Positions 5,970-52,326 of a stretch of 55,228 nucleotides of DNA are shown here, piece after piece. The stretch is taken from contig NZ_BSYI01000035.1 of NCBI RefSeq assembly GCF_030270585.1, forward strand, positions 1-55,228, written 5' to 3'. Within the stretch, counting starts at the first letter, position 1; each line of letters starts with the position of its first letter. Below the pieces are notes generated by a model. It did no database searches, was not told where the DNA came from, and worked only from the letters and a program-made list of their open reading frames with translations. This DNA is from Paralimibaculum aggregatum (GTDB lineage Bacteria > Pseudomonadota > Alphaproteobacteria > Rhodobacterales > Rhodobacteraceae). The translations under genes were made by a program, and so were the position numbers.

Positions 5970-5993
5970 GGGGCCTCCTGTTGCTTCGCCGTG

Positions 5994-6022: not shown

Positions 6023-6044
6023 GTCCGCGGGTCGGGGGAGAGGG

Positions 6045-7442: not shown

Positions 7443-7522
7443 GCTTGCCTCGCCTGTCCTGTCGGCACCTGACTAGCCGGGATCGCAGGCTGCGGAAACC
7501 GGTCGGTTCAAGAATGACAGGC

Positions 7523-8074
7523 CTAGCGGAGCGCGGCCAGCGCCGCATCGATCTCGGCCTTCAGCGCGATGCGCTCGGGCGCCGTGAGGGCGCGCCCGAG
7601 CTCGATCTCGCGGCCGCCGCCGGTCAGGGTGAGATAGGGTTTCACCGGCCCCCGGGGGTGCAGATGGGCATGGACGAAGCCGGGAAAGGCGCGCCAGCGC
7701 AGCACCCGGCCGGTGGGCTCGCGGCGCTCGACGCGGATCTCGTCGCGCCAGAGGGTGAGCTCCTCGACGAGGCGTCCCTCGCGGGCCGAGCGGGCCAGCC
7801 CGAGCCAGAGCATCCCGAGGCCGGCGAGGCAGAACGGCAGCAGCCCCCAGAAGGCGCGGGTGCCCGCGGCGGCCAGGAGCGGCATCGAGAAGCCGGCGGC
7901 GGCGATCAGCATGATCCGGCGGCGCCCGCCCGGAATGCGCGACCTGTGGGGCCAGATCGTGGCGCGGTAGAGGGGCGGATCGTTCCGTTCCTCCCAGTCG
8001 GCCGCCGCGCCGGGGCCGGAAGCGGCAACGGCCGGAGCTTCCGCCCCGGCCGTCGTTTCGTCGTGCGGCGCCAT
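7523..8074 (-). CDS. DUF2244 family membrane protein
   Basis: A 183-residue protein: a polar Ala/Gly-rich N-terminus, two close hydrophobic segments (about residues 55-95, beginning IMLIAAAGFSMPLLAAAG), then a soluble domain with LVEELTLWRDEIRVERREP and WRAFPGFVHAHLHP. This pattern matches the DUF2244 family of alphaproteobacteria, which has no established biochemical role and is often found next to cytochrome oxidase genes. It starts at the ATG at 8074, 11 bases after the ctaD stop, so the two genes are probably co-transcribed. A role in oxidase assembly is inference from neighbourhood only. Confidence 0.75.
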   Translation of the reverse strand: MAPHDETTAGAEAPAVAASGPGAAADWEERNDPPLYRATIWPHRSRIPGGRRRIMLIAAAGFSMPLLAAAGTRAFWGLLPFCLAGLGMLWLGLARSAREGRLVEELTLWRDEIRVERREPTGRVLRWRAFPGFVHAHLHPRGPVKPYLTLTGGGREIELGRALTAPERIALKAEIDAALAALR

Positions 8075-8085
8075 GTGTGGCGGCC

Positions 8086-9732
8086 TCAGTGATGCGCCGG
8101 CTGCTTGTCCCACATCTCCTTGGTGGGAAGCTGCTCGAAGGTATGCTCCGGCGGCGGGTTCGGCAGCGTCCACTCGAGGGTGGCGTAGCGGTCGTTCCAG
8201 TAGTTCGCCTCGGTCACCTTCTCGCCCTTCGTCACCGTGTAGTAGACGATGTAGAGGAAGAAGACGAAGCTCGCGCCCGAGATCATCGCGCCATAGGTCG
8301 AGATCTCGTTCCAGAAGGCGAAGGCCTCCGGATAGTCGATATAGCGGCGCGGCATGCCCTGGCGGCCGAGGAAGTGCTGCGGGAAGAAGGTGATGTTGGC
8401 ACCGATGAACATGGTCCAGAAATGGATCTTGCCCCAGAGCTCGGGATACTGGCGGCCGGACATCTTGCCGATCCAGTAGTAGAAGCCGGCGAAGATCGCG
8501 AAGACGGCACCGAGCGACATCACGTAGTGGAAGTGCGCCACGACATAGTAGGTGTCGTGATAGGCGCGGTCGATGCCGGCCTGGGAGAGCACGACGCCGG
8601 TCACGCCGCCCACGGTGAACAGGAACAGGAAGCCGAGGGCCCAGAGCATCGGGGTCTTGAGATCGATCGAGCCGCCCCACATGGTGGCGATCCAGGAGAA
8701 GATCTTGATGCCCGTCGGCACCGCGATCACCATGGTCGCGAGCATGAAATAGGCCTGCGCGTTGTGGCTCATGCCCACGGTGTACATGTGGTGCGCCCAG
8801 ACCACGAAGCCGAGCACGCCGATGCCCACCATCGCGAAGACCATGCCGGTGTAGCCGAAGATCGGCTTCTTCGAGAAGGTCGAGATCACGTGGCTGATGA
8901 TGCCGAAGCCCGGGACCACGAGGATGTAGACCTCGGGATGGCCGAAGAACCAGAGGATGTGCTGGTAGAGCACCGGGTCGCCGCCGCCGGCCGGGTCGAA
9001 GAAGGTGGTGCCGAAGTTGCGGTCGGTCAGCAGCATGGTGATCGCGCCGGCCAGCACCGGCAGCGCCAGCAGGATCAGGAAGGCGGTGATGAAGATCGAC
9101 CAGGCGAACAGCGGCACCTTCATCAGCGACATGCCCGGGGCGCGCATGTTGAGGAAGGTGGTGATCATGTTGATCGCGCCGAGGATCGACGAGGCGCCCG
9201 AGAGGTGCACCGCGAAGATCGCGAAATCGGTCGACATGCCGGCCTCGCGGGTCGAGAGCGGCGCATACAGCACCCAGCCGACGCCCGATCCGAGCTGCGC
9301 ATTGCCGCCCGGCACCACCAGCGACAGGATCAGCATGGTGCAGCCCGAGGCGTAGAGCCAGAATGAGAGGTTGTTCATCCGCGGGAAGGCCATGTCCGGC
9401 GCACCGATGTGCAGCGGCATGAAATAGTTGCCGAAGCCGCCGAACAATGCCGGGATCACCACGAAGAACATCATGGTCAGCCCGTGGCCGGTGATGAGCA
9501 CGTTCCACAGGTGGCCGTTCGGCGATCCGTCGCTCATCGTCATGTACTGCACGCCCGGCTCCATGAGCTCGAGGCGCATGTACCAGGTGAAGGCTACCGA
9601 GATCAGCCCGACGAAGCCCGCCGTGATGATGTAGAGGATCCCGATATCCTTGTGGTTCGTGGAACAAAACCAGCGGGTGAAGAACCCGCGGCCGTGTCCA
9701 TGGTCATGCGCGTGCACTGCAGCGTCAGCCAT
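8086..9732 (-). CDS. ctaD: Cytochrome c oxidase subunit I
   Basis: A 548-residue heme-copper oxidase catalytic subunit with 12 membrane segments. It begins with a His-rich N-terminus and the conserved [11 protein letters not shown]. The HPEVYIL motif (near residue 263) supplies the CuB histidine cross-linked to tyrosine, and the later [18 protein letters not shown] segment carries the heme a/a3 ligands. It reduces O2 to water in the inner membrane, pumping protons. Subunits II and III are absent here; in Rhodobacter-type genomes ctaD is also located apart from them. A DUF2244 gene follows directly. The ATG is preceded by GGGAGATGTTCG, an adequate ribosome site. Confidence 0.97.
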
Positions 9733-9794
9733 CGAACATCTCCCATTTCGCGTCGCAGCAGAGCGAGTCCGCCGTTTTTCACATATCTCGCTTG

Positions 9795-9823
9795 GTCATA
9801 GCGCGAGCCCCATGGCCGGACAA
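9795..9823 (-). promoter_or_regulatory. Predicted ctaD promoter
   Basis: On the minus strand TTGTCC (9823-9818) and TATGAC (9800-9795) are spaced by exactly 17 bases, giving a leader of about 55 bases before the ctaD ATG. Confidence 0.45.
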
Positions 9824-9831
9824 GCGCCGCA

Positions 9832-9898
9832 GCCGGTCTCGGGCAGGCAGGGGCAAGGGCCTACTGTCGCACGCGGCGCGGGAACGCCCGAGACCGGC
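9832..9898. repeat. 12-bp inverted repeat between ctaD and cytochrome c genes
   Basis: GCCGGTCTCGGG (9832-9843) is perfectly inverted as CCCGAGACCGGC (9887-9898) with 43 bases between. It lies upstream of ctaD and downstream of the cytochrome c gene (both minus strand), so it may form a long-loop hairpin ending the cytochrome transcript. Function is not established. Confidence 0.4.
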
Positions 9899-9943
9899 CC
9901 GATTCGTGGGAGGGCCGGCCGCAGTCCGGAAGCGGGACGCCGG

Positions 9944-10321
9944 TCACTCGCTCTTGATGAAGGCGATGAGGTCGGCGATCTGGTCGTCCTTCTTCAGGCC
10001 GGCGAAGGCCATCTTGGTGCCGGGCACGACCTTCTTGGGATTCCCGAGATACTCCGCGAGGGTCGCGTCGTCCCAGGTCTTGCCCTCGCCCCAGGCCATC
10101 ATCGCGTCGGAATACTTGAAGTCCTCCACCGCGCCGACCGGCCGGCCGATGATGCCGACGAGATGCGGCCCGACCCGGTTCTGCTCCTTGTCGAGCACGT
10201 GGCAGGCCTTGCACTTGTTGAAGACCCGCTTGCCCTTCTTGGCGTCGCCGTCGGCCTGGGCAACACCGGCGAGGCCGACGAGGGCCAGGGCGAGGGCGCC
10301 CTTCATCACGGACTTGATCAT
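9944..10321 (-). CDS. Periplasmic class I cytochrome c (c2/c550 type)
   Basis: A 125-residue protein with a Sec signal (cleavage expected after AQA at residue 23), a single heme site CKACH at residues 37-41, and the methionine-ligand region PGTKMAFAG near residue 105. The IGRPVGAVEDFKYSDAM stretch is typical of the mitochondrial-like cytochrome c2/c550 group. It would shuttle electrons in the periplasm from the bc1 complex to oxidases or to periplasmic reductases such as NirS and NorCB. A good ribosome site (GGAAGGGAGACAGGA) precedes the ATG. A degenerate FNR/DNR-type box at 10397-10410 suggests low-oxygen or NO-linked expression. Confidence 0.92.
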   Translation of the reverse strand: MIKSVMKGALALALVGLAGVAQADGDAKKGKRVFNKCKACHVLDKEQNRVGPHLVGIIGRPVGAVEDFKYSDAMMAWGEGKTWDDATLAEYLGNPKKVVPGTKMAFAGLKKDDQIADLIAFIKSE

Positions 10322-10368
10322 TCCTGTCTCCCTTCCTTTGCTGCGGCCGTCTCCGGGCCGACCGGTCG

Positions 10369-10410
10369 AAACTAGCGCCCGTGAGAGGACTCAGAAATCG
10401 CTAAAGTCAA
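10369..10410 (-). promoter_or_regulatory. Degenerate FNR/DNR box and -10 element upstream of cytochrome c
   Basis: On the minus strand TTGAC-TTTA-GCGAT (10410-10397) keeps a perfect left half and a weak right half of TTGAC-N4-GTCAA. If it sits at -41.5, the -10 position falls on TAGTTT (10374-10369), a fair -10 hexamer. The box overlaps the lipB stop codon. Spacing agrees with the norC site; the weak half keeps confidence low. Confidence 0.4.
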
Positions 10411-11084
10411 GGATCACGGGCGTCGAGGCGTGGCAAAATGGCATCCACGCTGGTCTCGAATGTCTGCCTGAGCGCGAGATCGAGATCCGCCATCTCCGCC
10501 GGCAGGCCGAGATCCACGAGGCTGGTCACGCCGTGGCCGCGGATGCCGCAGGGGACGATGCCGCCGAAATGCTCGAGATCGGGTTCGACATTGATCGCGA
10601 GGCCGTGGAAGCTGACCCAGCGCCGGAGCCGCACGCCGATCGCCGCGATCTTGTCCTCGGCCGGGCTGCCATCCGGCTGCGGCGGCTTCTCGGGCCGCGT
10701 CACCCAGACCCCGACGCGCCCCGGCCGGACCAGCCCGGTCACCTGGAAGCTGGCCAGCGCCGCGATCACCCAGGTCTCGAGCGCGTGGACGAATCGCCTG
10801 ACATCGCGGCGCCGCGCCGTCAGGTCGAGCATCACATAGACCACCCGCTGCCCCGGCCCGTGATAGGTGTATTGCCCGCCCCGCCGCACCGCATGCACGG
10901 GAAAGCGCGGGTCCAGCAGGTCCTCGGGCCGGGCGCTGGTGCCGGCGGTGTAGAGGGGGGGGTGCTCGAGCAGCCAGAGGCATTCCGGCGCCTCGCCCGC
11001 GGCGATCGCCCCGGCACGGGCCTCCATCCAGGCCTCTGCCTCCGCATAGGGGGTCAGTCCGTCGCTGACGCGCCATTCCACCAT
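10407..11084 (-). CDS. lipB: Octanoyl-[acyl-carrier-protein]:protein transferase LipB
   Basis: A 225-residue cytoplasmic enzyme that moves octanoate from acyl carrier protein to lipoyl domains, the first step of de novo lipoate synthesis. Visible LipB hallmarks: [13 protein letters not shown] (substrate loop), [17 protein letters not shown] with the catalytic-site lysine, and [16 protein letters not shown] with the catalytic cysteine. Length is normal. The start ATG at 11084 is the first in frame before the conserved [20 protein letters not shown] region. It is flanked by the cytochrome c gene downstream (85 bases) and tRNA-Leu upstream on the other strand. Confidence 0.95.
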
Positions 11085-11145
11085 GCCCCGGTGCTACGGC
11101 TTCCACGGCCGCCCGGCAAGATGCGGAGATTCTGCACCGGGGCTC

Positions 11146-11174
11146 TTGCGTGGGGTGAACGGCGCTGCTATCTC
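11146..11174 (+). promoter_or_regulatory. Predicted promoter of tRNA-Leu
   Basis: TTGCGT (11146-11151) and TATCTC (11169-11174) are 17 bases apart and are followed by a C-rich discriminator; the tRNA starts at 11191. CTC precedes the -35 element, as at the tRNA-Gln and tRNA-Gly promoters. Confidence 0.5.
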
Positions 11175-11190
11175 CGCCCCGTTCCCCGGT

Positions 11191-11277
11191 GCGGTCGTGG
11201 CGGAACTGGTAGACGCGCAGCGTTGAGGTCGCTGTCCCAGCAATGGGGTGGAAGTTCGAGTCTTCTCGACCGCACCA
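11191..11277 (+). tRNA. tRNA-Leu (GAG anticodon)
   Basis: An 87-base class II tRNA with encoded CCA: acceptor GCGGTCG/CGACCGC, anticodon stem CAGCG/CGCTG around TTGAGGT (GAG at 34-36), a long variable arm (TCCCAGCAATGGGG) and T-arm with GTTCGAGTC. Confidence 0.95.
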
Positions 11278-11463
11278 ATTTCCTCTCAGCGTCGATCCGA
11301 GTGCCCGATCCGGGGCGCGCGGAGACCTGCGGCGGCGACCGGCCGCCGCCGCCCTGCTCCAATCAAATCGCGAGGCCGCGAGGCCAACGGTGCTAGCATG
11401 CGATTCGCGTCCGCGCTGCGGACCGATTGGGGCATGAAACGCGATTACAGGGCAGGCAGACGC

Positions 11464-12171
11464 ATGATTTCACCCGGCGAGACCGCAGTGGTCCGGCAAT
11501 CCGCGCTCCTCGGCGGGCTGTCGGAAGAGCTGACGGCCGAATTGCTGCAGCATTCCTCGATCCGGAACTACGACCGCGGCGAGACCGTCTTCCTGCAGGG
11601 CGAGCCGGCCCACCGCGCCTTCATCGTGCTCGAGGGCTGGGTCAAGCTGTTCAGGATCACCCATGGCGGCTCCGAGGCCGTGGTCGCGGTCTTCACCAGG
11701 GGGCAGAGCTTCGCCGAGGCGGTCGCCTTCCAGAACGTGACCTATCCGGTCAATGCCGAGGCGGTGACCGACTGCCGGCTGCTGCGCCTCGACGCGCCGA
11801 CCATGCTCGACCGGATGCGCACCAATCCCGAGATCGCCACCGCCATCCTCTCGGCGACCTATCGGCACCTGCACGAGCTGGTGGCGCAGGTCGAGCAGCT
11901 CAAGGCGCAGACCGGCGCGCAGCGCGTCGCCGAGTTCCTGCTCAACCTCTGCGGCTCCGAAAGCGGCGCCTGCACCGTCACCATGCCCTATGACAAGGTG
12001 CTGATCGCCGGGCGCCTCGGCATGAAGCCGGAGAGCCTCAGCCGGGCCTTCACGCGGCTGCGCGAGGCGGGCGTGGAGGTTCGCAGCAACCACGCGGCGA
12101 TCGCCGATGCCGCGGAGCTGCGCGCCTTCGTGAACCGCGACCGCTCGGAATTCTGGCGCAAGGCGGAGTAG
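11464..12171 (+). CDS. Crp/Fnr-family regulator, DNR/NNR-like
   Basis: A 235-residue regulator. Residues about 15-125 form a cyclic-nucleotide-type sensor domain (DRGETVFLQGEPAHRAFIVL), followed by a long dimer helix and a C-terminal winged helix-turn-helix with GRLGMKPESLSRAFTRLRE, whose recognition helix matches the DNR/FNR type that reads TTGAC-N4-GTCAA. The N-terminal cysteine cluster of FNR is missing, which argues against an oxygen-sensing Fe-S cluster and favours the NO-responsive DNR/NNR branch. It lies next to norCBQDEF and 7 kb from nirS, both preceded by matching boxes, so it is the likely activator. An in-frame ATG at 11434 would add 10 residues. Confidence 0.85.
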   Translation: MISPGETAVVRQSALLGGLSEELTAELLQHSSIRNYDRGETVFLQGEPAHRAFIVLEGWVKLFRITHGGSEAVVAVFTRGQSFAEAVAFQNVTYPVNAEAVTDCRLLRLDAPTMLDRMRTNPEIATAILSATYRHLHELVAQVEQLKAQTGAQRVAEFLLNLCGSESGACTVTMPYDKVLIAGRLGMKPESLSRAFTRLREAGVEVRSNHAAIADAAELRAFVNRDRSEFWRKAE

Positions 12172-12182
12172 CGCCCGGCGGC

Positions 12183-12467
12183 TCAGAGCTCCGGGATCAG
12201 GAACAGCGCATAGATCAGCACCGCGGCCGCCCCCAGCGCGACGTCGAAGCCGCGCGCGATGGCCGGCACGGCGGCGAGGCCGAGATAGCCGCGCATGATG
12301 ATCCGCATCTTCGCCCAGGCGAAGCCGAGCAGGAGCGCGCCGGCCAGCGCCGCGGGCAGCCGGTCCCGGGTTATCGCGATGGCGGTGGTGCAGAGGCTGA
12401 GCCCCAGCAGCAGCAGCCAGGCGCGTGTCAGCGGGTCGCGGAGATGGATGCGCATCGCCTCTCTCAC
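12183..12467 (-). CDS. norF: NorF, nitric oxide reductase accessory membrane protein
   Basis: A 94-residue protein with three hydrophobic segments, including LTRAWLLLLGLSLCTTAIAI and ALGAAAVLIYALFLIPEL; it ends the norCBQDEF unit. NorF is a small membrane protein related in shape to oxidase subunit IV and is needed for full NO reductase activity in Paracoccus, but its biochemical role is undefined. The GTG at 12467 overlaps the norE stop by 4 bases; the ATG at 12455 has a purine-rich stretch but too close, so the exact start is uncertain. It converges on the regulator gene with an 11-base gap. Confidence 0.8.
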   Translation of the reverse strand: MREAMRIHLRDPLTRAWLLLLGLSLCTTAIAITRDRLPAALAGALLLGFAWAKMRIIMRGYLGLAAVPAIARGFDVALGAAAVLIYALFLIPEL

Positions 12468-13024
12468 AGCAGGTAGATCACCGGGAACAGCACCACCCAG
12501 ACCAGGTCGACCATGTGCCAGAAGGCGGCCCCCGTCTCGAGATTGTCGTGGCTGTCGCGCCAGGCGACGAGGCCGAGGATCGCGATGCCCGCCACCACAT
12601 GGGCGGCGTGAAAGCCGGTCAGCAGGTAGTAGAAGGTGTAGAACGCATGCGTCTCGGTGCCGATGCCGGCGGCGATCTTGTGCGCGTATTCGATCGCCTT
12701 GACCCCGAGGAACACCATCCCGAGGAGAGCGGCGCCGCCGATCGCCAGCCGGGCATCGCGGCGCCTGCCGGAGGCGCGGAACCGGACCGCCAGCGCCATC
12801 AGCCAGCCGCTGGTGACGAGCACCGCGGTGTTGATCGCGCCGAGCCTGCCGTCGAGGCCCTGCTGCGCCAGGGCGAAGCCCTCGGGATCCGTCGCGCGGA
12901 CGGCCGCGAAGGCGACCAGACCGGCGCCGAAGACCAGAAGCTCCGAGACGATCAGCACCCAGATCATCAGGTCGCCCGGCAGCGCGTCGAGCTCGCTGGC
13001 GGGCGCGCCGGCGCGGTCCTTCAT
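12464..13024 (-). CDS. norE: NorE, cytochrome oxidase subunit III-like protein
   Basis: A 186-residue membrane protein with five hydrophobic segments and the heme-copper oxidase subunit III signature region (GTETHAFYTFYYLLTGFHAA, then HMVDLVWVVLFPVIYLL). The short length and five segments match NorE rather than true CoxC (seven segments). NorE and NorF improve NO reductase function in vivo without being catalytic. The start ATG at 13024 overlaps the norD stop by 4 bases, indicating translational coupling. Confidence 0.87.
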   Translation of the reverse strand: MKDRAGAPASELDALPGDLMIWVLIVSELLVFGAGLVAFAAVRATDPEGFALAQQGLDGRLGAINTAVLVTSGWLMALAVRFRASGRRRDARLAIGGAALLGMVFLGVKAIEYAHKIAAGIGTETHAFYTFYYLLTGFHAAHVVAGIAILGLVAWRDSHDNLETGAAFWHMVDLVWVVLFPVIYLL

Positions 13025-14952
13025 GCCGCCACCAGGTGCCGGTAGATCTCCGGCAGCGCGCGGGTCAGCCGGTCGGGATGCGCGATCACCGCGAAGCCGC
13101 CGCGGCCGAAGATCCGCGGGAACCAGGCCTTGCCCTCGGCGTCCACGGCGATGCCGAAGACCGCATGGCCGGCCCGGCGCGCCTCGCGGATCGCCATGCG
13201 GCTGTCCTCGATGCCGTGGCGGCCCTCGTAGTGATCGAGATCGTTCGGCTTGCCGTCGGTGATCACCAGCAGCAGCCGGCGCGATCGGCCCTCGCGCGCG
13301 AGCCCGGCCGAGACATGGCGCAGCGCCGCGCCGAGGCGGGTGTAGAAGCCCGGCCGGAGCCCGGCGATCCGGGCCTCCACCACCGGCCCCATCGGCTCGG
13401 AGAAGCCCTTGCAGCGCTGCACGAAGACCCGGTTCCGGCGCAGCGAGGAGAAGGCATGGATCGCGACGCCGTCGCCGGCGGCCTCGATGCCCCAGGCCAG
13501 GGCGGTGAGCGCCTCGCGCTCGATCTCGATGACCGCCCGCCCGGTGACCGCGCTCTCGGTGGAGCGCGAGACGTCGAGCAGGATCGAGACCGAGAGGTCG
13601 CGCGCCTCCGGGCGGCTGGCGAGCCAGACCCGCTCGCTGCCCCGGCCGGCGGCGCGCAGCTCGGCCTCGGCGCGGACCGCCGCGTCGAGATCGAGCTCGG
13701 CGCCGTCCGGCTGGCGCGGCAGCAGCACCCGCCGCGGACGCAGCGCCTCGAACTGGCGCCTGACCCGGCGGATGCGCCGCCCGGCGGCCGGATCGGCGGC
13801 GGCGGGCCCGGCGGCGGCCTCGGCGGTGCTCGACAGCACGCGGGCATGGTCGGGCAGATAGGCACCGCTGCGCGCGTCCCATTCGGGATAGAGATGCTCG
13901 CCGGAGAGCCGCTCGCGCTCGGCCTCAGCCGGCGAGAGGTCGAGATGCAGCTTCAGCCGGGTGGCGGGGGCCTTCTCGGAGCGCGCGAGGGCGATCTCGT
14001 CGGCGTCCTCGGCGGCCTTCTGCGCGGTCTCGGGGTCGTCGTCGTCGACCCGGCGGTTGAGGTTGAGGAACTCGGCGAAGGAGAGGATGGCCTCGAACTT
14101 GTGCAGGATCAGGCTGTCGCTGCGCGCCGGCTGGTCGGCCTTGCGGCGGCGGGCGCGGCGGATCTCGCTCTCGGTCTGCTCGCGCGGGCTCTCGGGCCGG
14201 GGCGCGTCGGGCTCGGCCCCGGCGCCGGCCTCGGCGGCGCGGAACGCCGGCCAGAGCGGCACGGGCATCGGCGGGCGGTAGCCACGCGGCGCCTGCCAGC
14301 GCGCGTCGGCGCCGGAGCGGATGGCGGCATGGATGCGCGCGGCGAGGCCATCCCGCGGGGGCTCTCCGCCGAGCATCGCGAGGATGGCGGCCTCGAGCGC
14401 GGCCTCGGCGGCGGGCAGGGCGCGCCGGGGTCGCAGCGAACGGGCGGCGGTGCAGAGCTCGCGATGCAGCGCGCGCAGGCCCGGACAGGCGCCGAGCGTC
14501 GCGGCAACGGTCGCCTCCGCGGCCGCGAGCTGCGCGACATCCGCGGCCAGCGGGTCGGCCTCCGGGCGCGGCGGAACGGCATGGGCCGCGCAGGCGGCCA
14601 GCCAGAGATAGAGCGCGGCATTGGCCTCGCGCCAGGGAAAGGCCGCCAGCCGCGGCGGCAGGCGCAGGGTCTCGCCGTCGAAGGCGGCGCGGGCGATGCG
14701 CTCGGCCGCGACCCCGAGCCGGCGGCGGCGGGAGAGCCGGTGCCGGCTCTCCTCCGGCGCGGCGGCGCGGATCTCCACGCCGGCGCCGCCGCCGAGGCCC
14801 CGGAAGAACACCGCGAGCCGGCCCGCGACCTCGTCCAGCCCGACCGCGGCATCCGCATGGCTGGCCGGTGCATCGAGCCTGCTGGCGAAGGCGTGCCAGA
14901 GCTTGCCGACCGTCTCCTCCGGCTCCCAGGGCTCGAACTCGATCCGGGTCAT
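13021..14952 (-). CDS. norD: NorD, vWA-domain nitric oxide reductase activation protein
   Basis: A 643-residue cytoplasmic protein. A long helical, Ala/Arg-rich N-terminal part and an acidic middle precede a C-terminal vWA domain with the metal site LDVSRSTES and LLLVITDGKPNDLDHY. NorD works with the MoxR-type ATPase NorQ to activate the NO reductase complex, probably by inserting non-heme iron. Length and gene position (C-B-Q-D-E-F) match Paracoccus-type norD. It starts 6 bases after norQ and overlaps norE by 4, so all six genes look like one transcript. Confidence 0.93.
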   Translation of the reverse strand: MTRIEFEPWEPEETVGKLWHAFASRLDAPASHADAAVGLDEVAGRLAVFFRGLGGGAGVEIRAAAPEESRHRLSRRRRLGVAAERIARAAFDGETLRLPPRLAAFPWREANAALYLWLAACAAHAVPPRPEADPLAADVAQLAAAEATVAATLGACPGLRALHRELCTAARSLRPRRALPAAEAALEAAILAMLGGEPPRDGLAARIHAAIRSGADARWQAPRGYRPPMPVPLWPAFRAAEAGAGAEPDAPRPESPREQTESEIRRARRRKADQPARSDSLILHKFEAILSFAEFLNLNRRVDDDDPETAQKAAEDADEIALARSEKAPATRLKLHLDLSPAEAERERLSGEHLYPEWDARSGAYLPDHARVLSSTAEAAAGPAAADPAAGRRIRRVRRQFEALRPRRVLLPRQPDGAELDLDAAVRAEAELRAAGRGSERVWLASRPEARDLSVSILLDVSRSTESAVTGRAVIEIEREALTALAWGIEAAGDGVAIHAFSSLRRNRVFVQRCKGFSEPMGPVVEARIAGLRPGFYTRLGAALRHVSAGLAREGRSRRLLLVITDGKPNDLDHYEGRHGIEDSRMAIREARRAGHAVFGIAVDAEGKAWFPRIFGRGGFAVIAHPDRLTRALPEIYRHLVAA

Positions 14953-14958
14953 CGCCCG

Positions 14959-15762
14959 CTACCCGAACACCGCGGCGACCAGGTCGAGCAAGCCGCGCCG
15001 GACGTCCTCGTCGTCGGTCAGCGGCTCGATCATCGCGGCCAGCACCGCGCGCTCGAGCGGCATCCCCCGGGCGATCAGCGTCGCGGCATAGACCACGAGC
15101 CGGGTCGAGACGCCCTCCTCGAGATCCTGGCCGCGGAGCGCCCGCAGCTTGCCGGCGAGCCGCACCAGCGCCGCCGCCCGCGCCGGGTCGAGCCCGCTCT
15201 CGGCGACGACGATCTCGGTTTCCTGCCCGGGCTTCGGGAAATCGATCTCGATCGACAGGAAGCGCTGGCGGGTGGAGGGCTTCAGCGTCTTCAGGATGTT
15301 CTGGTAGCCGGGGTTGTAGGAGGCCACCAGCATGAAGCCGGGCGCCGCGGCGAGCTCCTCGCCGGTGCGGTCGATCGGCAGGATGCGCCGGTCGTCGGTG
15401 AGCGGGTGCAGCACCACGGTGACGTCCTTGCGCGCCTCCACCACCTCGTCGAGATAGCAGATCGCGCCCTCGCGCACCGCGCGGGTCAGCGGCCCGTCGG
15501 CCCAGACCGTCTCGCCGCCCTTCAGCAGATAGCGCCCGATCAGGTCGGCGGCGGAGAGATCGTCATGGCAGGCGACCGTGTAGAGCGGCCGGCCGAGCCG
15601 CGCCGCCATATGCGCCACCAGCCGGGTCTTGCCGCAGCCGGTCGGGCCCTTGAGCAGCAGCGGCAGGGCATTGGCATGGGCGGCGGCGAAGAGCGTGCAT
15701 TCGTCGCCCTGGGGGAGGTAGAAGGGGGCCTCCGCCCCCTCCCTGACCGGTGTCCCGTCCAT
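14959..15762 (-). CDS. norQ: NorQ, MoxR-type AAA+ ATPase for NO reductase activation
   Basis: A 267-residue AAA+ ATPase. Walker A GPTGCGKTRL lies near residue 39, Walker B-type ICYLDEVVEARKD near residue 100, and ASYNPGYQN supplies sensor 1. NorQ/NirQ proteins form hexamers that, with NorD, activate NorCB. No separate nirQ is present in the window, so this copy may also serve the nitrite reductase region. The ATG at 15762 follows the norB stop by 5 bases. Confidence 0.94.
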   Translation of the reverse strand: MDGTPVREGAEAPFYLPQGDECTLFAAAHANALPLLLKGPTGCGKTRLVAHMAARLGRPLYTVACHDDLSAADLIGRYLLKGGETVWADGPLTRAVREGAICYLDEVVEARKDVTVVLHPLTDDRRILPIDRTGEELAAAPGFMLVASYNPGYQNILKTLKPSTRQRFLSIEIDFPKPGQETEIVVAESGLDPARAAALVRLAGKLRALRGQDLEEGVSTRLVVYAATLIARGMPLERAVLAAMIEPLTDDEDVRRGLLDLVAAVFG

Positions 15763-15767
15763 CGCGC

Positions 15768-17135
15768 TCACTCCGCCGCGACCGTGGCGTCGGACGAGAT
15801 GATCTCCTGCCGCTTCGGCACCAGGATCGCGTAGATGAACAGGAACGCGCCGATCACCACCGCGACGCCGGCGCCGAAGCGCATCCAGTAGAACAGCGCC
15901 AGCCCGTCCTGCACGCTCATGTAGTCCTCGCCGAGCACCCGCTGCATGTGGGTCTGCACCGTGCCGGCGAAGGTCAGCACGAAGGTCATGAAGCACATGC
16001 CGCCGGCCATCAGCCAGAAGCTGCCCATGTTGAGCACCTGGTTGTAGGGGTCGCGGTTCTTCAGGATCGGGAAGGCATAGGTGAAGATCGCGAGGTTGAG
16101 CGAGACATAGGCGCCGAAGAAGGCGAGGTGCCCGTGCGCCGCGGTGATCTGCGTGCCGTGGGTGTAGTAGTTCACCCCGTGCAGCGTGTGCAGGAAGCCC
16201 CAGACCCCGGCGCCGAAGAAGGCGAGCGTGGCGCAGCCGAGGCTCCACAGCAGCGCCGCCTTGTTCGGATGGTCGCGCCGGCCCTTCCAGACCATGATGA
16301 AGGCGAAGGACATCATCGCGAAGAACGGGATCACCTCGAGCGAGGAGAAGATCGAGCCGATCCACTGCCAGTAGGCCGGGCCGCCGATCCAGTAGTAGTG
16401 GTGCCCGGTGCCGAGGATGCCCGAGAACAGCGCGGTGCCGACGATGACATAGAGCCATTTCTCGACGATCTCGCGATCGACCCCGGTGAGCTTGAGCATC
16501 AGGAAGGCGAGGATCGAGGCCATGATCAGCTCCCAGACCCCCTCGACCCAGAGATGGATCACGTACCACCAGTACTGCTTGTCGAGGCCGAGATTGTCCG
16601 GGTTGTAGAAGGCGAAGAGGAACAGCACCACGAGGCCCCAGAGGCCGAGCAGCAGCACGTTGGTGATCGCGGTCTTCTTGCCCGCCAGCACCGTCATGGT
16701 GACGTTGTAGAGGAAGATCACGGCGGCCACGGCGATGCCGAGCTTGACCCAGAGCGGCTGCTCGAGGAACTCGCGGCCCTCCTTGCCGAGCAGCCAGTGC
16801 CCGTGGAACAGGTCGAAGATGTAGGTCACCACGACGCCGGCGGTGCCGAGCAGCAGGATCGCGAGCTGGACATAGGCCAGCATCGGCGAGTGGATCTCGC
16901 GCTCGCTCTCCTCGGGGATCAGGAAATAGGCGGCGCCGAAGAAGCCGAGCAGCAGCCACACCACCAGGCTGTTGGTGTGCAGCATCCGCACGGTGTTGAA
17001 GGGCAGGATCTCCGACAGCGTGTTGGGCGCGACATAGATCCAGCCGGCCAGCAGTCCGCCGAGCACCTGCACCGCGAAGAGCGCCATGGCCGCGACGAAA
17101 TAGGCCTTGGCGACGGATTGGCTCTGATATTTCAT
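15768..17135 (-). CDS. norB: Nitric oxide reductase catalytic subunit NorB (cNOR)
   Basis: A 455-residue heme-copper-superfamily protein with 12 membrane segments that reduces two NO to N2O in the inner membrane. Ligand histidines are visible in MLHTNSLVVWLLLGFFG (low-spin heme b), HLWVEGVWELIMASILAF (FeB site with the conserved glutamates) and GTGHHYYWIGGP (FeB histidine pair). There is no N-terminal quinol-oxidising extension, so this is a cytochrome c-dependent cNOR, consistent with the adjacent norC. Length is normal and no disruptions are seen. Confidence 0.97.
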   Translation of the reverse strand: MKYQSQSVAKAYFVAAMALFAVQVLGGLLAGWIYVAPNTLSEILPFNTVRMLHTNSLVVWLLLGFFGAAYFLIPEESEREIHSPMLAYVQLAILLLGTAGVVVTYIFDLFHGHWLLGKEGREFLEQPLWVKLGIAVAAVIFLYNVTMTVLAGKKTAITNVLLLGLWGLVVLFLFAFYNPDNLGLDKQYWWYVIHLWVEGVWELIMASILAFLMLKLTGVDREIVEKWLYVIVGTALFSGILGTGHHYYWIGGPAYWQWIGSIFSSLEVIPFFAMMSFAFIMVWKGRRDHPNKAALLWSLGCATLAFFGAGVWGFLHTLHGVNYYTHGTQITAAHGHLAFFGAYVSLNLAIFTYAFPILKNRDPYNQVLNMGSFWLMAGGMCFMTFVLTFAGTVQTHMQRVLGEDYMSVQDGLALFYWMRFGAGVAVVIGAFLFIYAILVPKRQEIISSDATVAAE

Positions 17136-46004: not shown

Positions 46005-47465
46005 ATGACCAAGGTGATCAAGGGCGGGACCATCGTGACCGCCGACCGGAGCTGGAAGGCCGATGTCCTGATCGAGGGCGAGACCATCAGGGCGATCGGC
46101 GAGAACCTCTCGGGCGACGAGGTGATCGACGCCTCCGAGGCCTATGTCATCCCCGGCGGCATCGACCCGCATACCCATCTCGAGATGCCCTTCATGGGCA
46201 CCCGCGCGGCGGAGACCTTCACCTCCGGCACCTTCGCCGCCGCCGCCGGCGGCACCACCATGCTGGTGGATTTCGTGCTGCCGGGGCCGGATGGCAGCCT
46301 GCTCAACGCCATCGAGGACTGGAACGGCCGCGCGCTGCCGCAGATCTCGGTCGATCTCGGCTACCACATGGCGATCACCGGCTGGTCCGAGCAGATCCAT
46401 GCCGAGATGCCCGAGGTGGTGAAGCGCGGGGTCAACACCTTCAAGCATTTCATGGCCTACAAGGGCGCGCTGATGGTGGAGGACGACGAGATGTTCGCCT
46501 CCTTCCAGCGCTGCGCCGAGCTCGGCGCGCTGCCGCTGGTGCATGCCGAGAACGGCGACCTGGTGGCGGCGCTGCAGGAGAAGTACATGGCCGCCGGCAC
46601 CACCGGGCCGGAGGGGCATGCCTATTCGCGCCCGCCGGAGGTCGAGGGCGAGGCCGCCAACCGCGCGATCATGATCGCCGATGCCGCCGGCGTGCCGCTC
46701 TACATCGTGCATGTCTCCTGCGAGCAGGCGCATGAGGCGATCCGGCGCGCCCGGCAGAAGGGCATGCGGGTCTATGGCGAGCCGCTGATCCAGCACCTGG
46801 TGCTCGACGAGCGCGAGTATTTCCACGCCGACTGGGAGCACGCGGCGCGCCGGGTGATGTCGCCGCCGTTCCGCGACCGCGGCCACCAGGACAGCCTCTG
46901 GGCCGGGCTCGCGGCGGGCTCGCTGCAGGTGGTGGCGACCGACCATGCCGCCTTCACCACCGAGCAGAAGCGGATGGGGCTGAAGGGCTTCCCGAGCATC
47001 CCCAACGGCACCGGCGGGCTCGAGGACCGGCTCGCCGTGCTCTGGTCGAAGGGGGTGGAGAGCGGGCGGCTGACCCCGGAGGAGTTCGTCGCCGTCACCT
47101 CGACCAACATCGCCAAGATCCTCAACGTCTATCCGCGCAAGGGCGCCATCGTCGAGGGCGCCGATGCCGATCTCGTGGTCTGGGACCCGAAGCTCTCCAA
47201 GACCATCACCGCGGCGACGCAGAAGAGCATCATCGACTACAACGTGTTCGAGGGCATCGAGGTCAGCGCGCAGCCGCGCTACACCCTCTCGCGCGGCGAC
47301 GTGGTCTGGGCGCATGGCCAGAACAGCCAGCCGCAGCCGGGGCGCGGCCGCTTCATCCCGCGGCCGGCCTTCCCCTCGGCGCACAAGGCGCTCTCGGCCT
47401 GGAAGTCGCTCAACAGCCCGCGCAGGATCGAGCGCGACCCGCAGAACATCCCCTCGGGGGTGTGA
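46005..47465 (+). CDS. hydA: Dihydropyrimidinase
   Basis: A 486-residue cyclic amidohydrolase opening dihydrouracil or dihydrothymine to N-carbamoyl-beta-amino acids. The binuclear Zn site is visible: GGIDPHTHLEMPF (first two His), carboxylated lysine in NTFKHFMAYKGA, HAENGD, LYIVHVSCEQAH, and VATDHAAFTTEQKR with the aspartate. Length and motifs are normal; product goes to the amidohydrolase encoded upstream. AAGGAGCCAGAGC is the ribosome site. The last ten codons and stop (RDPQNIPSGV) are the first element of a tandem repeat that continues downstream. Hydantoinase activity is a common side function of this family. Confidence 0.96.
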   Translation: MTKVIKGGTIVTADRSWKADVLIEGETIRAIGENLSGDEVIDASEAYVIPGGIDPHTHLEMPFMGTRAAETFTSGTFAAAAGGTTMLVDFVLPGPDGSLLNAIEDWNGRALPQISVDLGYHMAITGWSEQIHAEMPEVVKRGVNTFKHFMAYKGALMVEDDEMFASFQRCAELGALPLVHAENGDLVAALQEKYMAAGTTGPEGHAYSRPPEVEGEAANRAIMIADAAGVPLYIVHVSCEQAHEAIRRARQKGMRVYGEPLIQHLVLDEREYFHADWEHAARRVMSPPFRDRGHQDSLWAGLAAGSLQVVATDHAAFTTEQKRMGLKGFPSIPNGTGGLEDRLAVLWSKGVESGRLTPEEFVAVTSTNIAKILNVYPRKGAIVEGADADLVVWDPKLSKTITAATQKSIIDYNVFEGIEVSAQPRYTLSRGDVVWAHGQNSQPQPGRGRFIPRPAFPSAHKALSAWKSLNSPRRIERDPQNIPSGV

Positions 47466-48307
47466 GCGCGCGCCCTGGCCGGCATCGGCGGGCGCAGGGC
47501 CTGCCTCGGGTTGCCCGCCGCGGCGCCGGGCCGCGCGACCCGCAGAACATCCCCTGGGGGGTGTGAGCGCCTGCCCTGGCCGGCATCGACGGGCGCGGGG
47601 CATGCCCCGGGTTGCCCGGCGAGGCGTCGGTCCGCGCGACCCGAAGAACATCCCTCGGGGGTGTGAGGGCGCGCCCTGGCCGGCATCGGCGGGCGCAGGG
47701 CCTGCCTCGGGCTGCCCGGCGAGGCCCGCGGCCCGGCATCGCCGGCTGCCCGCCGCGGCGCCGGGCCGCGCGACCCGCAGAACATCCCCTGGGGGGTGTG
47801 AGCGCCTGCCCTGGCCGGCATCGACGGGCGCGGGGCATGCCCCGGGTTGCCCGGCGAGGCCCGCGGCCCGGCATAGCCGGCCGGCCGCCGCGGCGCCGGG
47901 CCGCGCGACCCGCAGAACATCCCCTCGGCGGTGTGAGGGCCTGCCCTGGCCGGCATCGCCGGGCGCAGGCCCTGCCTCGGGCTGCCCGGCGAGGCCCGCG
48001 GCCCGGCATCGCCAGCTGCCCGCCGCGGCGCCGGGCCGCGCGACCCGCAGAACATCCCCTCGGGGGTGTGAGGGCGCGCCCTGGCCGGCATCGGCGGGCG
48101 CGGGGCCTGCTTCGGGCTGCCCGGCGAGGCCCGCGGCCCGGCATCGCCGGCCGCCCGCCGCGGCGCCGGGCCGCGCGACCCGCAGAACATCCCCTCGGGG
48201 GTGTGAGGGCGCGCCCTGGCCGGCATCGGCGGGCGCGGGGCCTGCCTCGGGCTGCCCGGTAAGGCACGCGGCCCGGCATCGCCGGCTGCCCGCCGCGGCG
48301 CCGGGCC
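47432..48307. repeat. Seven-unit GC-rich tandem repeat that includes the 3' end of hydA
   Basis: Units start with GCGCGACCCGCAGAACATCC at 47432, 47533, 47634, 47768, 47903, 48038 and 48173, ending at 48307: lengths 101, 101, 134, 135, 135, 135, 135. The first 35 bases of each unit copy the hydA tail, including its stop codon; unit 1 is the true gene end. The long units contain an extra 33-34 bases flanked by short CTGCCCG or GGCG repeats whose deletion would give the short ones. Each long unit carries GCGGCCCGGC and, at its junction, GCCGGGCCGC (9 of 10 in the last), a 10-bp hairpin. Reading frames run through it on both strands because 135 is a multiple of 3 and GC is high; no ribosome site supports translation. 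Confidence 0.9.
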
Positions 48308-48694
48308 GGGGCGGGCGCGGAGGCGGGGCGGCGCGCGCACCGGGTGGCCCCCGGGCCGCGTGCGGATCGCGGCGTCCGGGATGAGGCCCGGGGCGGCGCG
48401 CCGGTGCGATCCGGGCGATCCGGGCGGCGCAACCGGCGCGACCCGCGAGACCGCGGGCCGGGCCGCTTCAGGGCCCGGCGCCTCGCGGGGGCCGGCTGCC
48501 GGCGACGGGGCGGGCCACGGGGCGGGCCTCCGCGCCGTGCGTCTGGCGCAGGGCGGCAAAGCGGGCCGCGTTCCCGCCGCCGGGAGCAGCGCGGCGACGG
48601 GCTTCCGCGGGCTCGACATCCGGGCGGGCGGCGGCGAAGATCGGGCCGGGTCCGCACGCGCGGTGCGGCGCGGCATCATCTGAGGGAGCGCCCC
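48308..48694. other. GC-rich spacer without recognised gene
   Basis: This 387-base stretch follows the repeat array and precedes the nitronate monooxygenase gene. Frames are open (for example GTG at 48360 to 48683) but the translations are Arg/Gly/Ala-rich without domain features and without a ribosome site. A GAGGGAGC ribosome site for the next gene lies at its right end. I see no hairpin with T-run and no clear promoter. Confidence 0.5.
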
Positions 48695-49780
48695 ATGGGC
48701 TGGCCGGACCGGCGCTTTGCGGATCTCGTCGGTGTCGAGCACCCGATCGTGCAGGCGCCGATGACGCATTCCTGTTCGCCGGCGCTGGCGGCGGCGGTCT
48801 CCGACGCCGGCGCCCTGGGCTCGATGGGCATGGCCTTCAAGTCGGCGGAGCGGCGCGCCGGGGACATCGCCGCCGCCGCGCGGCTCACCAACCGGGCGGT
48901 CAATCTCAACTTCTTCGCCAACCGGGCGGCGGTGGAGGGGCCGGGCCGCCCCGATGCGGCGCGGGCGGCGGCGGCGCCGGCCTATGCCGCGCTCGGGCTC
49001 GGCGCGCCGCCGGAGGCGCTCCCGGCAGAGGGGCTCGCCGCCACCGGCGACGGTTTCGGCGCGGCCGAGCTCGCGCTGCTGCTCGCGGTGCGGCCGCGGG
49101 TGGCGAGCTTCCATTTCGGCCTGCCGGACCGGGACGCGGTCGCGGCGCTGAAGGCGGCCGGCATCCGGCTCGGTGCCACCGCCACCACCACGGCGGAGGC
49201 CCGCGCGGTGGAGGAGGCGGGCTGCGATTTCGTCGTCGCCCAGGGCTTCGAGGCCGGCGGGCATCGCGGCGCCCATGCGCCCACGGCGGCGGATGGCGGG
49301 GTCGGCACCCTCGCGCTGGTGCCGCAGATCGCCGATGCGGTGACGCTGCCGGTGGTGGCGGCGGGCGGCATCGCCGACGGGCGCGGCATCGCCGCGGCCT
49401 TCGCGCTGGGCGCGGCGGGGGTGCAGCTCGGCACCGCCTTCCTGCGCTGCCCGGAGGCGGCGACCGATGCGCCCCGCCGCGCCCGGCTGGCGGCGGCGAC
49501 CGACAGCGACACCATCGTCACCGCCGCGGTCTCGGGCCGGTCCAACCGGATCGCCGCCGGGCCGGGGCTGCGCGCGCTGGCGGCCGGGGCGCCGGCCTGC
49601 CTGCCGTTCCCCACGCAATACGCGCTCTCCGGCCCGCTGCGCGCCGCCGGCGGCGCGGATTACGCGGCGCACCAGTATGGCCAGGCGGCGGCGCTGGCGC
49701 GGGAGCTGCCGGCGCGCGAGCTGGTCGCGGCGCTGGCCGCCGAGGCGCTCGACCGCTTGGCCTGGCTCGGCAGGGCCTGA
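48695..49780 (+). CDS. Nitronate monooxygenase (2-nitropropane dioxygenase family)
   Basis: A 361-residue FMN-dependent TIM-barrel enzyme. The N-terminal VEHPIVQAPMTHSCSP and SDAGALGSMGM, the GCDFVVAQGFEAGGHRGAH motif with the catalytic-site histidine, and LPVVAAGGIADGRGIAAAFA for FMN phosphate binding are diagnostic. The family oxidises alkyl nitronates such as propionate-3-nitronate to aldehydes or keto acids plus nitrite; some members act on other substrates. The ATG at 48695 is preceded by GAGGGAGC. It starts a small unit with the next gene 3 bases away. Confidence 0.92.
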   Translation: MGWPDRRFADLVGVEHPIVQAPMTHSCSPALAAAVSDAGALGSMGMAFKSAERRAGDIAAAARLTNRAVNLNFFANRAAVEGPGRPDAARAAAAPAYAALGLGAPPEALPAEGLAATGDGFGAAELALLLAVRPRVASFHFGLPDRDAVAALKAAGIRLGATATTTAEARAVEEAGCDFVVAQGFEAGGHRGAHAPTAADGGVGTLALVPQIADAVTLPVVAAGGIADGRGIAAAFALGAAGVQLGTAFLRCPEAATDAPRRARLAAATDSDTIVTAAVSGRSNRIAAGPGLRALAAGAPACLPFPTQYALSGPLRAAGGADYAAHQYGQAAALARELPARELVAALAAEALDRLAWLGRA

Positions 49781-49783
49781 GCG

Positions 49784-50395
49784 ATGGAGCCGCTGATCCC
49801 TCTCCTCGCGCTCGGCATCGTCGCGCTCGGCGTGCTGGTCACGCTCCGGCGGCGGCGCAGCCGGCAGCGGCGGCTCGACCCGGAGGGCTGGCGGCTGATC
49901 CGCAGGCGCCGGCACTGGCGCGCCGACCGGCAGCACCGCAGCCCCGGCAGCCTGAGCTACGAGGTCGCGCTCGACCGGCTCGGTGCCGAGCGCAACGCCC
50001 GGCTCAACGAGCTGATCGCGGCGCGCGACGTTGCCGCCGCGGCGGCGCTGCTGGAGGCGGCGGGCTTTCCGGCGGCGGAGGCGATCGACCGGGCCGAGCG
50101 CTATACCCTGCGCCCGCATCCGGAGGCCGACACCCGCGGCCTCGGCGCCGGGCGCCGGCGCGGCGCGGTGGAGCTGCCGCCGGCCGCCGCGATGGCCGAG
50201 GCGCGGGCCCGGGCCGGGCTCGCCGCGGCGCCGGGCGGCTCCGCCGGCGCGGTCGAGGCCGAGATCGCGGCGCTGATGGCTGCCGGGCGCAAGATCCATG
50301 CGGTCAAGCTCTACCGCAGCCATTACGGCACCGACCTGCGCACCGCGAAGCTGGCCGTCGAAGCGATGGACAGGGACCGCCGCGCCGGGGGATAG
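49784..50395 (+). CDS. Membrane-anchored protein with ribosomal L7/L12 C-terminal-like domain
   Basis: A 203-residue protein: one N-terminal membrane helix (LIPLLALGIVALGVLVTL), a very basic segment, an Ala-rich helical middle, and a C-terminal module AEIAALMAAGRKIHAVKLYR followed by the YGTDLRTAKLAVEAMD helix. The last part resembles the L7/L12 C-terminal fold (pattern KIxAIKLYRxxTGxxLKxAKxxVE), which also occurs in non-ribosomal proteins of unknown role. It starts 3 bases after the monooxygenase stop, so the two are probably co-transcribed. Confidence 0.65.
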   Translation: MEPLIPLLALGIVALGVLVTLRRRRSRQRRLDPEGWRLIRRRRHWRADRQHRSPGSLSYEVALDRLGAERNARLNELIAARDVAAAAALLEAAGFPAAEAIDRAERYTLRPHPEADTRGLGAGRRRGAVELPPAAAMAEARARAGLAAAPGGSAGAVEAEIAALMAAGRKIHAVKLYRSHYGTDLRTAKLAVEAMDRDRRAGG

Positions 50396-50442
50396 ATGGG
50401 CAGGCGCGCCGCGAGGCGCCGCGCAAAAGGGGGAGAGCCGGA

Positions 50443-50991
50443 ATGCAGGCGAGCCAGGCCAAGGACTTCTTCGTCAGCGAGTTCAAGCACATGCTGCCGC
50501 CGACGATCTTCTTCATCATCTGCTTCAACGTGATCGCGCTCACCGTGGCGCTGCTCGCCGAGGGCCGCGAGGCCAGCCTCGGCGCCCATGCCGGCGCCAC
50601 CCTGGCGGGCATGGTCTGCGGCAAGGCGGTGCTGGTGGCCGACCGGCTGCCCTTCTTCAACCGCTATCCGCAGTATCCGCTGATCTGGAACGCGCTCTGG
50701 AAGACGCTGCTCTATGTCGCCGTCACCTTCGCCTTCCGGCTGCTCGAGAAGCTGCTCTCGGCGGCCACCGGGGAATACGGCTTCTCCGCCGGCGTGGCCG
50801 AGCATGTCGCGCATTTCGAGTGGTCGCGGTTCTTCGCGATCCAGCTCTGGCTGCTGATCCTGTTCTTCCTCTACACCGCCTTCGGCGAGCTGGTCGGGCA
50901 GGTCGGGCGGGCGCGCATCATGCAGATGTTCTTCGGCCCGGTGGCGCCCGGGGCGGCGGAGCCCGGCGGCCGGCCGGCCGGCCCTTCGTGA
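50443..50991 (+). CDS. Integral membrane protein of unknown function
   Basis: A 182-residue protein with about four hydrophobic segments (PTIFFIICFNVIALTVALLA, LAGMVCGKAVLVADRLPFF, ALWKTLLYVAVTFAFRLLE, FAIQLWLLILFFLYTAFGEL) and a Gly/Pro-rich tail. The DRLPFFNRYPQYPLIWNALWK stretch is well kept in proteobacterial conserved hypotheticals of this size, but I know no function. GGGGGAGAGCCGG is the ribosome site. It ends near the convergent cupin gene, 14 bases away. Confidence 0.75.
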   Translation: MQASQAKDFFVSEFKHMLPPTIFFIICFNVIALTVALLAEGREASLGAHAGATLAGMVCGKAVLVADRLPFFNRYPQYPLIWNALWKTLLYVAVTFAFRLLEKLLSAATGEYGFSAGVAEHVAHFEWSRFFAIQLWLLILFFLYTAFGELVGQVGRARIMQMFFGPVAPGAAEPGGRPAGPS

Positions 50992-51005
50992 GCGCCGCGG
51001 CGGCC

Positions 51006-51452
51006 TCAGCCGGCCTCGATGCCCGCGAGCTCCGGCACCAGCCCCTCGAGATCGGGGCGCAGCACGACGCTCTCCTGCTCGTGCGGGTCGGTGCGCGCGA
51101 TCACCGCGACCGCCTCGGCGCCGGAGAGGTTGGCCGGCAGGTGCGGCATCCCGGCGGGGATGTAGACCAGGTCGCCGGCGCGGGTGTCCATGCGGTGCTC
51201 GAGCCGCTCGCCCCACCACATGACGACCTCGCCGGAGATGGTGTAGACCGCGGTCTCGTGGCTCTCGTGCAGATGCGCGCGGGCACGCCTGCCGGGCGGG
51301 ATGGTCAGCAGATGCATGCAGATCGCTGCCGCGCCGGTGGTCTCGCGGGCGATGCCCTCGAAATAGTCGAAGCCCTGCTTGCCGGAATAGGTGTTGGCGG
51401 GGCGTATCCTGTGGCAGACAGGTTTGCCTGAGGGGGTGTCCGATGCGCTCAT
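51006..51452 (-). CDS. Cupin-domain protein
   Basis: A 148-residue single-domain cupin. Motif 1 is ARAHLHESHETAVYTISGEV (two His, one Glu as metal ligands) and motif 2 is GDLVYIPAGMPHLPANLSG (third His). Small cupins of this type bind a metal and act as isomerases, dioxygenases or sensors; no specific reaction can be assigned. It is divergent from the ABC transporter genes, and its start codon lies only 44 bases from the chosen start of the ATPase gene, so the two control regions overlap the coding sequences. Confidence 0.85.
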   Translation of the reverse strand: MSASDTPSGKPVCHRIRPANTYSGKQGFDYFEGIARETTGAAAICMHLLTIPPGRRARAHLHESHETAVYTISGEVVMWWGERLEHRMDTRAGDLVYIPAGMPHLPANLSGAEAVAVIARTDPHEQESVVLRPDLEGLVPELAGIEAG

Positions 51453-51495
51453 GTCCGATCCTTTCGCGAGGCCGCGCCGCCGCGGCGGGTGCCCG

Positions 51496-52326
51496 ATGAG
51501 CGGCGCCGGTCCCGTCTCCGGCCAGTTGGCCCCCGGCGCCGCGGCGCTGTCAACCGCGGTCGAGGCGCGCGGGCTCTCGCTGACCTTCGAGACCGGCGAC
51601 GGCCCGGTCGAGGCGCTGAAGGGCGTCGACCTCTCGATCGCGCGCGGCGATTTCGTCAGCTTCATCGGCCCCTCGGGCTGCGGCAAGACCACCTTCCTGC
51701 GCTGCATCGCCGGGCTCGAGCACCCGACCGGCGGCAGCCTCGAGGTCAACGGGCTGACGCCGGACGCGGCGCGCCGGGCGCGCGCCTACGGCTATGTCTT
51801 CCAGGCCCCGGCGCTGCTGCCCTGGCGCACCATCGGCGGCAACATCCGGCTGCCGCTGGAGATCATGGGGGTGCCGAAGCCCGAGCGCATGGCGCGCACC
51901 GGCGAGGTGCTGGCGCTGGTCGGGCTCGACGGCTTCGCCCGGAAATATCCCTGGCAGCTCTCGGGCGGCATGCAGTCGCGCGCCTCGATCGCCCGGGCGC
52001 TCTCCTTCGATGCCGATCTGCTGCTGATGGACGAGCCCTTCGGCGCGCTCGACGAGATCGTCCGCGACCATCTCAACGAGGCGCTGCTGGAGCTCTGGGC
52101 GCGCACCGGCAAGACGGTGTGCTTCGTCACCCACTCGATCCCGGAGGCGGTGTTCCTCTCGACCCGGATCGTGGTGATGTCGCCGCGGCCCGGCCGCATC
52201 GCCGACGTGATCGAGAGCCCGCTCGGCCGCGAGCGCCCGCTGGAGATCCGCGAGACGCCGGAATTCCTCGAGGTGGCGCGGCGGGTGCGCGAGGGGCTGC
52301 GCGCGGGGCACAGCTATGACGACTGA
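51496..52326 (+). CDS. ABC transporter ATP-binding protein (SsuB/TauB/ThiZ type)
   Basis: A 276-residue ATPase: Walker A GPSGCGKTT, Q-loop VFQAPALLPWRTIGGNI, signature LSGGMQSRASIARAL, Walker B LLLMDEPFGALD, and a switch histidine in VTHSIPEAVFL. The LPWRT Q-loop sequence is typical of the nitrate/taurine/sulfonate/pyrimidine importer group. The start at 51496 matches the family length; an upstream ATG at 51451 overlaps the cupin start. It works with the two permeases encoded at 53100-54811. Confidence 0.92.
   Translation: MSGAGPVSGQLAPGAAALSTAVEARGLSLTFETGDGPVEALKGVDLSIARGDFVSFIGPSGCGKTTFLRCIAGLEHPTGGSLEVNGLTPDAARRARAYGYVFQAPALLPWRTIGGNIRLPLEIMGVPKPERMARTGEVLALVGLDGFARKYPWQLSGGMQSRASIARALSFDADLLLMDEPFGALDEIVRDHLNEALLELWARTGKTVCFVTHSIPEAVFLSTRIVVMSPRPGRIADVIESPLGRERPLEIRETPEFLEVARRVREGLRAGHSYDD

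Follow-up and report, generated by a model that had tools for sequence, protein, structure and literature searches.

The window, that is, the whole 55,228-nucleotide stretch of Paralimibaculum aggregatum DNA analysed here, carries hydA, followed by a GC-rich tandem array, a GC-rich spacer that runs from the array to position 48694, three further genes, a cupin gene, and an ABC transporter ATPase gene (Table 1). TRF, which scores the array at 483 and 1182, and alignment of the units confirm the seven-unit array that a sequence-only reading had placed at this site, together with its two units of 101 and five of 134–135 nucleotides (start-to-start spacings of 101, 101, 134, 135, 135, and 135). 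As a series of head-to-tail copies of a unit longer than about 10 bp, the array is a minisatellite. That reading was also right in seeing the gene end captured in the duplicating unit: the repeat takes in the final 34 bases of hydA, and the native stop codon (47463–47465) lies inside unit 1. Each unit opens with a G and the last 33 nucleotides of hydA or a variant of them, with 33 of 33 matches in units 6 and 7 and 32 of 33 in units 2, 4, and 5—encoding RDPQNIPWGV, RDPQNIPWGV, and RDPQNIPSAV, respectively, each followed by a stop. The rule is qualified by unit 3, in which one substitution and the loss of one base leave the copy frameshifted and its stop out of frame. Since unit 1 supplies the working gene end, hydA is intact and the downstream copies appear to be tolerated.

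Table 1. Coordinates of hydA, the array with its units, and the neighbouring genes in the window
Feature	Position	Strand	Evidence or remark
hydA, amidohydrolase of dihydropyrimidinase/hydantoinase type	46005–47465	+	PF01979, 1.7e-26; relatives up to 85% identity
Tandem array, 7 units, 83% GC	47432–48307	+	TRF and unit alignment
Unit 1, 101 nt	47432–47532	+	True hydA end plus 67 nt 3′ of the stop
Unit 2, 101 nt	47533–47633	+	97.9% identity to unit 4 (columns 1–95)
Unit 3, 134 nt	47634–47767	+	hydA-derived part short of one base
Unit 4, 135 nt	47768–47902	+	
Unit 5, 135 nt	47903–48037	+	One pair broken in each of two stems
Unit 6, 135 nt	48038–48172	+	
Unit 7, 135 nt	48173–48307	+	Length when the end is set at 48307
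Weak 17-base sub-repeats, three, within a long unit (unit 3 as example)	47709–47759	+	TRF, alignment
hydA stop to cupin gene end: array, GC-rich spacer, three genes	47466–51005		Comparison with same-genus genomes
Nitronate monooxygenase gene, next downstream of hydA	48695–49780	+	PF03060, 2.5e-67
Second gene of three-gene stretch	49784–50395		
Third gene of three-gene stretch	50443–50991		
Cupin gene, convergent to hydA	51006–51494	−	PF07883, 4.7e-13; in 18 of 84 hydA loci
ABC transporter ATPase gene, usual hydA partner	51496–52326	+	PF00005, 5.7e-28; in 73 of 84 loci

The units are 86.3–97.9% identical to one another over alignment columns 1–95, and they vary at 26 of 135 columns as well as in length. 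The highest identity is that between units 2 and 4, which are not adjacent in the array; this points to copying or exchange of several units at a time. Substitutions affect three of columns 1–34 (in addition to the base lost from unit 3) versus 10 of columns 35–86, and the hydA-derived columns are not special compared with the rest. Short and long units differ by 34 bases, equal to two of the weak 17-base sub-repeats (TRF period 17 at 47710–47752, sub-units agreeing at 10–14 of 17 positions). The size of the deletion of 33–34 bases proposed as the source of the short units thus holds, but a single event is too simple, because units 1 and 2 retain different parts of the sub-repeat stretch. The genome is a draft of 201 contigs, a kind of assembly that may misstate the precise number of units; the array as a whole, however, is very unlikely to be an assembly artefact, given that neither the variable columns nor the length differences resemble a duplicated-read error and that dozens of similar arrays with differing units exist. 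Still less credible is a coding role. Open frames of 406 codons on the plus strand and 1014 codons on the minus strand do cross the array, but at 83% GC long frames commonly arise by chance, the variable columns fall 7, 7, and 12 by position modulo 3 with no clear third-position excess, and our gene caller placed no gene there.

Among 111 loci with a hydA match, 108 were readable after one without a stop and two representing the window itself had been left out. An ungapped search for each gene's own last 33 nucleotides within 1.5 kb downstream found a hydA-end copy in none of the 108 (best identity 0.64, a level that shuffles exceed at 0.67). The lack of an array behind hydA in all of these relatives indicates a recent origin in this lineage. 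The gene end itself is older: most relatives above about 75% identity keep the C-terminus RDPxNIP(S/A)G(V/I), so the native hydA end is ancestral, and more distant relatives have other C-termini such as TGIPASGV. Recent slippage, one of the origins suggested earlier, is therefore right in part. The array is best read as the product of duplication by slippage or unequal exchange, and its absence from relatives agrees with a recent date, but units that have diverged to 86–98% identity are not very fresh, and amplification may have been slow or old.

The ABC transporter ATPase gene follows hydA on the same strand at a distance ranging from a slight overlap to 1,953 bases in the 73 loci that have it, and the cupin gene lies between the two on the opposite strand in its 18 loci, including those of the same-genus genomes G001 and G003. 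In these two, the only same-genus loci with enough flank, the cupin gene ends about 9 bp from the hydA stop; in the window, it still adjoins the ABC gene but lies some 3.5 kb from the hydA stop. At the third same-genus locus, in G004, the ABC gene begins 32 bases 3′ of hydA. The three extra genes have no match at 1e-10 in the 84 hydA loci, whose flanks are limited, and relatives of the monooxygenase (44–61% identity) sit elsewhere in genomes G001–G004. Judged by gene order, the cupin gene is the ancestral neighbour of hydA, and the array stands at the margin, on the hydA side, of a seemingly lineage-specific three-gene insertion into a convergent junction. The notion that hydA and the ABC gene are kept apart by four genes in this genome alone is wrong, as the cupin gene is ancestral and, across 73 relatives, the distance ranges from an overlap up to 1.95 kb. 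Near the contig start, at 677–1300, the window also encodes RTX calcium-binding nonapeptide repeats (PF00353, 8e-26), and similar in-gene repeats are present in two further stretches of the same genome (L130 and L168).

The hydA array is one of many in its genome. The sample surveyed—the window and 56 further stretches, 1,149,562 of 5,505,440 bases (21%)—is non-random, with the first 16 stretches chosen near earlier weak matches and the other 40 located at the beginnings of contigs C1, C2, C3, C7, and C9. TRF rows with a period of 50 or more and no fewer than 1.9 copies were merged into arrays, and genes were called with our own simple caller. This yielded 55 arrays in 1.15 Mb (48 per Mb, 2.35% of bases), 48 of them in the 40 contig-start stretches (800 kb) and 12 wholly within predicted genes, RTX-like repeats among them; when 94,556 intergenic bases were dinucleotide-shuffled three times, a single row in total passed the same filter. 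Relatives yielded two arrays in 220 kb (G001, 9.1 per Mb), three in 420 kb (G008, 7.1 per Mb), one in 220 kb (G022, 4.6 per Mb), and none in 220 kb each of G003 and G028, 100 kb of G002, 70 kb of G004 (excluding one fully masked piece, L228), or 160 kb of four other genomes, while 80 named hydA loci held two in 1.0 Mb (2.0 per Mb). No relative sampled exceeds one-fifth of the array density seen in P. aggregatum. The arrays are clustered, with none in 33 of 57 pieces and a variance of 2.45 against a mean of 0.96, and their number drops as the coding fraction rises (r = −0.80). Dense groups of unrelated intergenic arrays occupy, for example, three 20-kb stretches of low coding fraction (0.52–0.70): L162 (seven at 4812–14444), L157 (five at 2923–16074), and L177 (six at 4549–15019). 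At least one of the relatives' arrays, with 258-base units in G008, which belongs to a related genus (L119, 16201–16887), occupies a convergent space, so arrays of this kind are not wholly exclusive to P. aggregatum.

Two possible causes of the excess were rejected. A missing repair gene is not supported, as seven DNA-repair families show no explanatory difference from nine other genomes: mutS, recJ, recG, xseA, and addA are present as in the other nine, Ku is absent from all 10 genomes examined, and SbcD exceeds its cut-off in only one, which is not this one. The recG product is full-length, and its 638 bits against a curated cut-off of 659 have parallels in six of the nine others, which also fall below it. 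In G001, which is not array-rich in the sample, the mutS match consists of two adjoining pieces in different frames (C33, 148880–151487), perhaps a broken gene or a sequencing error. High GC content fails likewise, since G003 has 71.1% GC and no array in 220 kb, compared with 72.5% GC in P. aggregatum.

Most of the arrays are mutually unrelated, barring near neighbours and RTX-like gene repeats: at 1e-6, cross-array BLAST gave 10 pairs, seven within one 20-kb stretch and three between RTX-like in-gene repeats. This bears on the question of a dispersed repeat family copied into many intergenic sites. MIRU elements of mycobacteria are such a family, with intergenic tandem units some 100 bp long that are homologous across many sites. 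The hydA array resembles them in unit size and intergenic position, and the genome is rich in intergenic arrays. In contrast to MIRUs, no homologous units at unlinked sites were found in the array comparison, which covered 21% of the genome: distant non-coding array units are unrelated at 1e-6, matches of the hydA unit elsewhere in its genome are short, GC-rich, and no better than E 5.6e-5, and the unit is in part hydA itself. Membership in a dispersed family is accordingly most improbable.

The arrays are unevenly distributed with respect to gene orientation. After three ORF calls within arrays had been dropped, convergent gene spaces held an array in 12 of 84 cases, tandem spaces in 12 of 349, and divergent spaces in one of 127 (convergent versus divergent, p = 8e-5; convergent versus tandem, p = 5e-4); before removal, the counts were 12 of 84, 15 of 352, and one of 127. 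Per array-free kb, this corresponds to 0.57, 0.23, and 0.03 arrays, respectively. Five gene stops are overlapped, by four arrays, and no gene start. Gene-end capture, scored as at least one downstream match of 25 of 33 to a gene's own last 33 bases, was found at 15 of 935 gene ends versus 0 of 403, one of 388, and 0 of 804 in controls, although two of the 15 are ORFs in an array and several are lone far-downstream matches that may reflect chance or paralogues. Besides hydA, clear captures are those of L150 (37–888), L132 (15675–17081, an amidase gene), and L163 (1664–2428); the match of L162 (8376–9407) is a low-complexity CGC run. As for a general link of arrays with synteny breaks, at least one flanking gene was found in sampled relatives for two of 28 array spaces (none adjacent) versus 92 of 535 others (27 adjacent), a comparison of few cases.

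Could the array serve as a transcription-end or mRNA-protecting device, its GC-rich hairpins and repeated stops ending transcription or translation and blocking exonucleases? The hairpins reported from the sequence exist. The outer 10-bp stem is present in the five long units and missing from both short ones; its eight alignable pairs are invariant, and the remaining two extend into the next unit, so that one is lost after the last unit, leaving 9 bp. The inner GCCCTG/CAGGGC stem shows the described U–G pair in four units and U–A in three, but unit 5 breaks another pair. Pairing is retained in 98.5% of cells versus 21–58% when the stems are slid, a contrast to be read with the stems having been derived from the same sequences; a 7-bp stem is possible at the hydA end itself in most units, and arrays lie mostly at gene 3′ ends. 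However, across the units no pair in the three stems counted shows a two-sided change, the sole alternative being U–A/U–G at one position. Fold energies of all seven units remain at the level of shuffles (z from −1.05 to +0.16), with differing predicted folds, so that neither compensatory changes nor stability above composition, the marks of a conserved structured RNA, were found in the units. From 46800 to 49000, the plus strand has no GC-rich stem followed by a T run, and the only terminator-like site is on the minus strand (one found versus 0.3 expected). Rfam has no family in the array, its one match being below the gathering score on the minus strand within hydA. By predicted folding, mid-array segments genome-wide show no excess of structure over segments that follow stops and contain no array (median z −0.13, n = 43, versus −0.48, n = 106; p = 0.30). 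Nor are repeated stops kept: besides the out-of-frame copy in unit 3, CGA or CGG stands in place of the TGA stop in all three copies found in L150 and both in L132. A protective or read-through-blocking role, as the sequence-only reading had envisaged, is thus unlikely.

The E. coli tyrT repeats provide a precedent for the geometry of the array: these 178-bp units with the rtT RNA follow a tRNA gene, and each opens by repeating the 3′ end of that gene. They differ in belonging to a tRNA operon with a known transcript, whereas the hydA array has no rtT match. Another parallel is VNTR3239 (ETR-F) of the M. tuberculosis complex, described as lying between rnc and fpg1 with composite units of 55 and 79 bp and as confined to one lineage, related species having a few bases between the two genes (PMC2734929). 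Both arrays are intergenic, have two unit lengths, and occur in a single lineage. According to the same account, however, the VNTR3239 repeats extend from 40 bp past the stop to the start codon of the next gene, whereas the hydA unit contains the gene end; for VNTR3239, variation among strains and a connection with expression have been reported (PMC2734929), while the hydA array is known from the sequence of one genome.

Most probably, the hydA array is a minisatellite that arose by local tandem duplication and is tolerated behind the gene, one of many such arrays in this genome. New DNA would first have come to lie 3′ of hydA, after which roughly 100 bases, comprising the final 34 of the gene and adjoining spacer, would have been duplicated and the copies multiplied by slipped-strand replication or unequal exchange. 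Length variation may then have arisen in the 17-base sub-repeat, and multi-unit copying would have linked units 2 and 4. Because the gene end ahead of the copies stays intact, capture would be harmless, neutral, and incidental. That minisatellites lie mainly behind genes would reflect the purging of arrays near promoters. Alternatively, the 3′-end bias could be one of origin rather than survival. We consider it conceivable, though on balance doubtful, that the species acquired a process, absent or weak in the sampled congeners, that continually makes unrelated tandem arrays at 3′ ends and may be coupled to convergent transcription or to transcription ends. If so, gene-end capture as at hydA would be a footprint of this process, marking its start points.

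A lone array of this kind is ordinary; the genome is unusual in its dense, mostly unrelated minisatellites concentrated behind genes. For annotation, it serves as a warning: in arrays of this kind, neither repeated gene ends nor long open frames rich in GC should be taken for genes. For the biology of the organism, it constitutes a natural case in which to ask what lets bacteria gain minisatellites and whether the direction of transcription shapes their sites.
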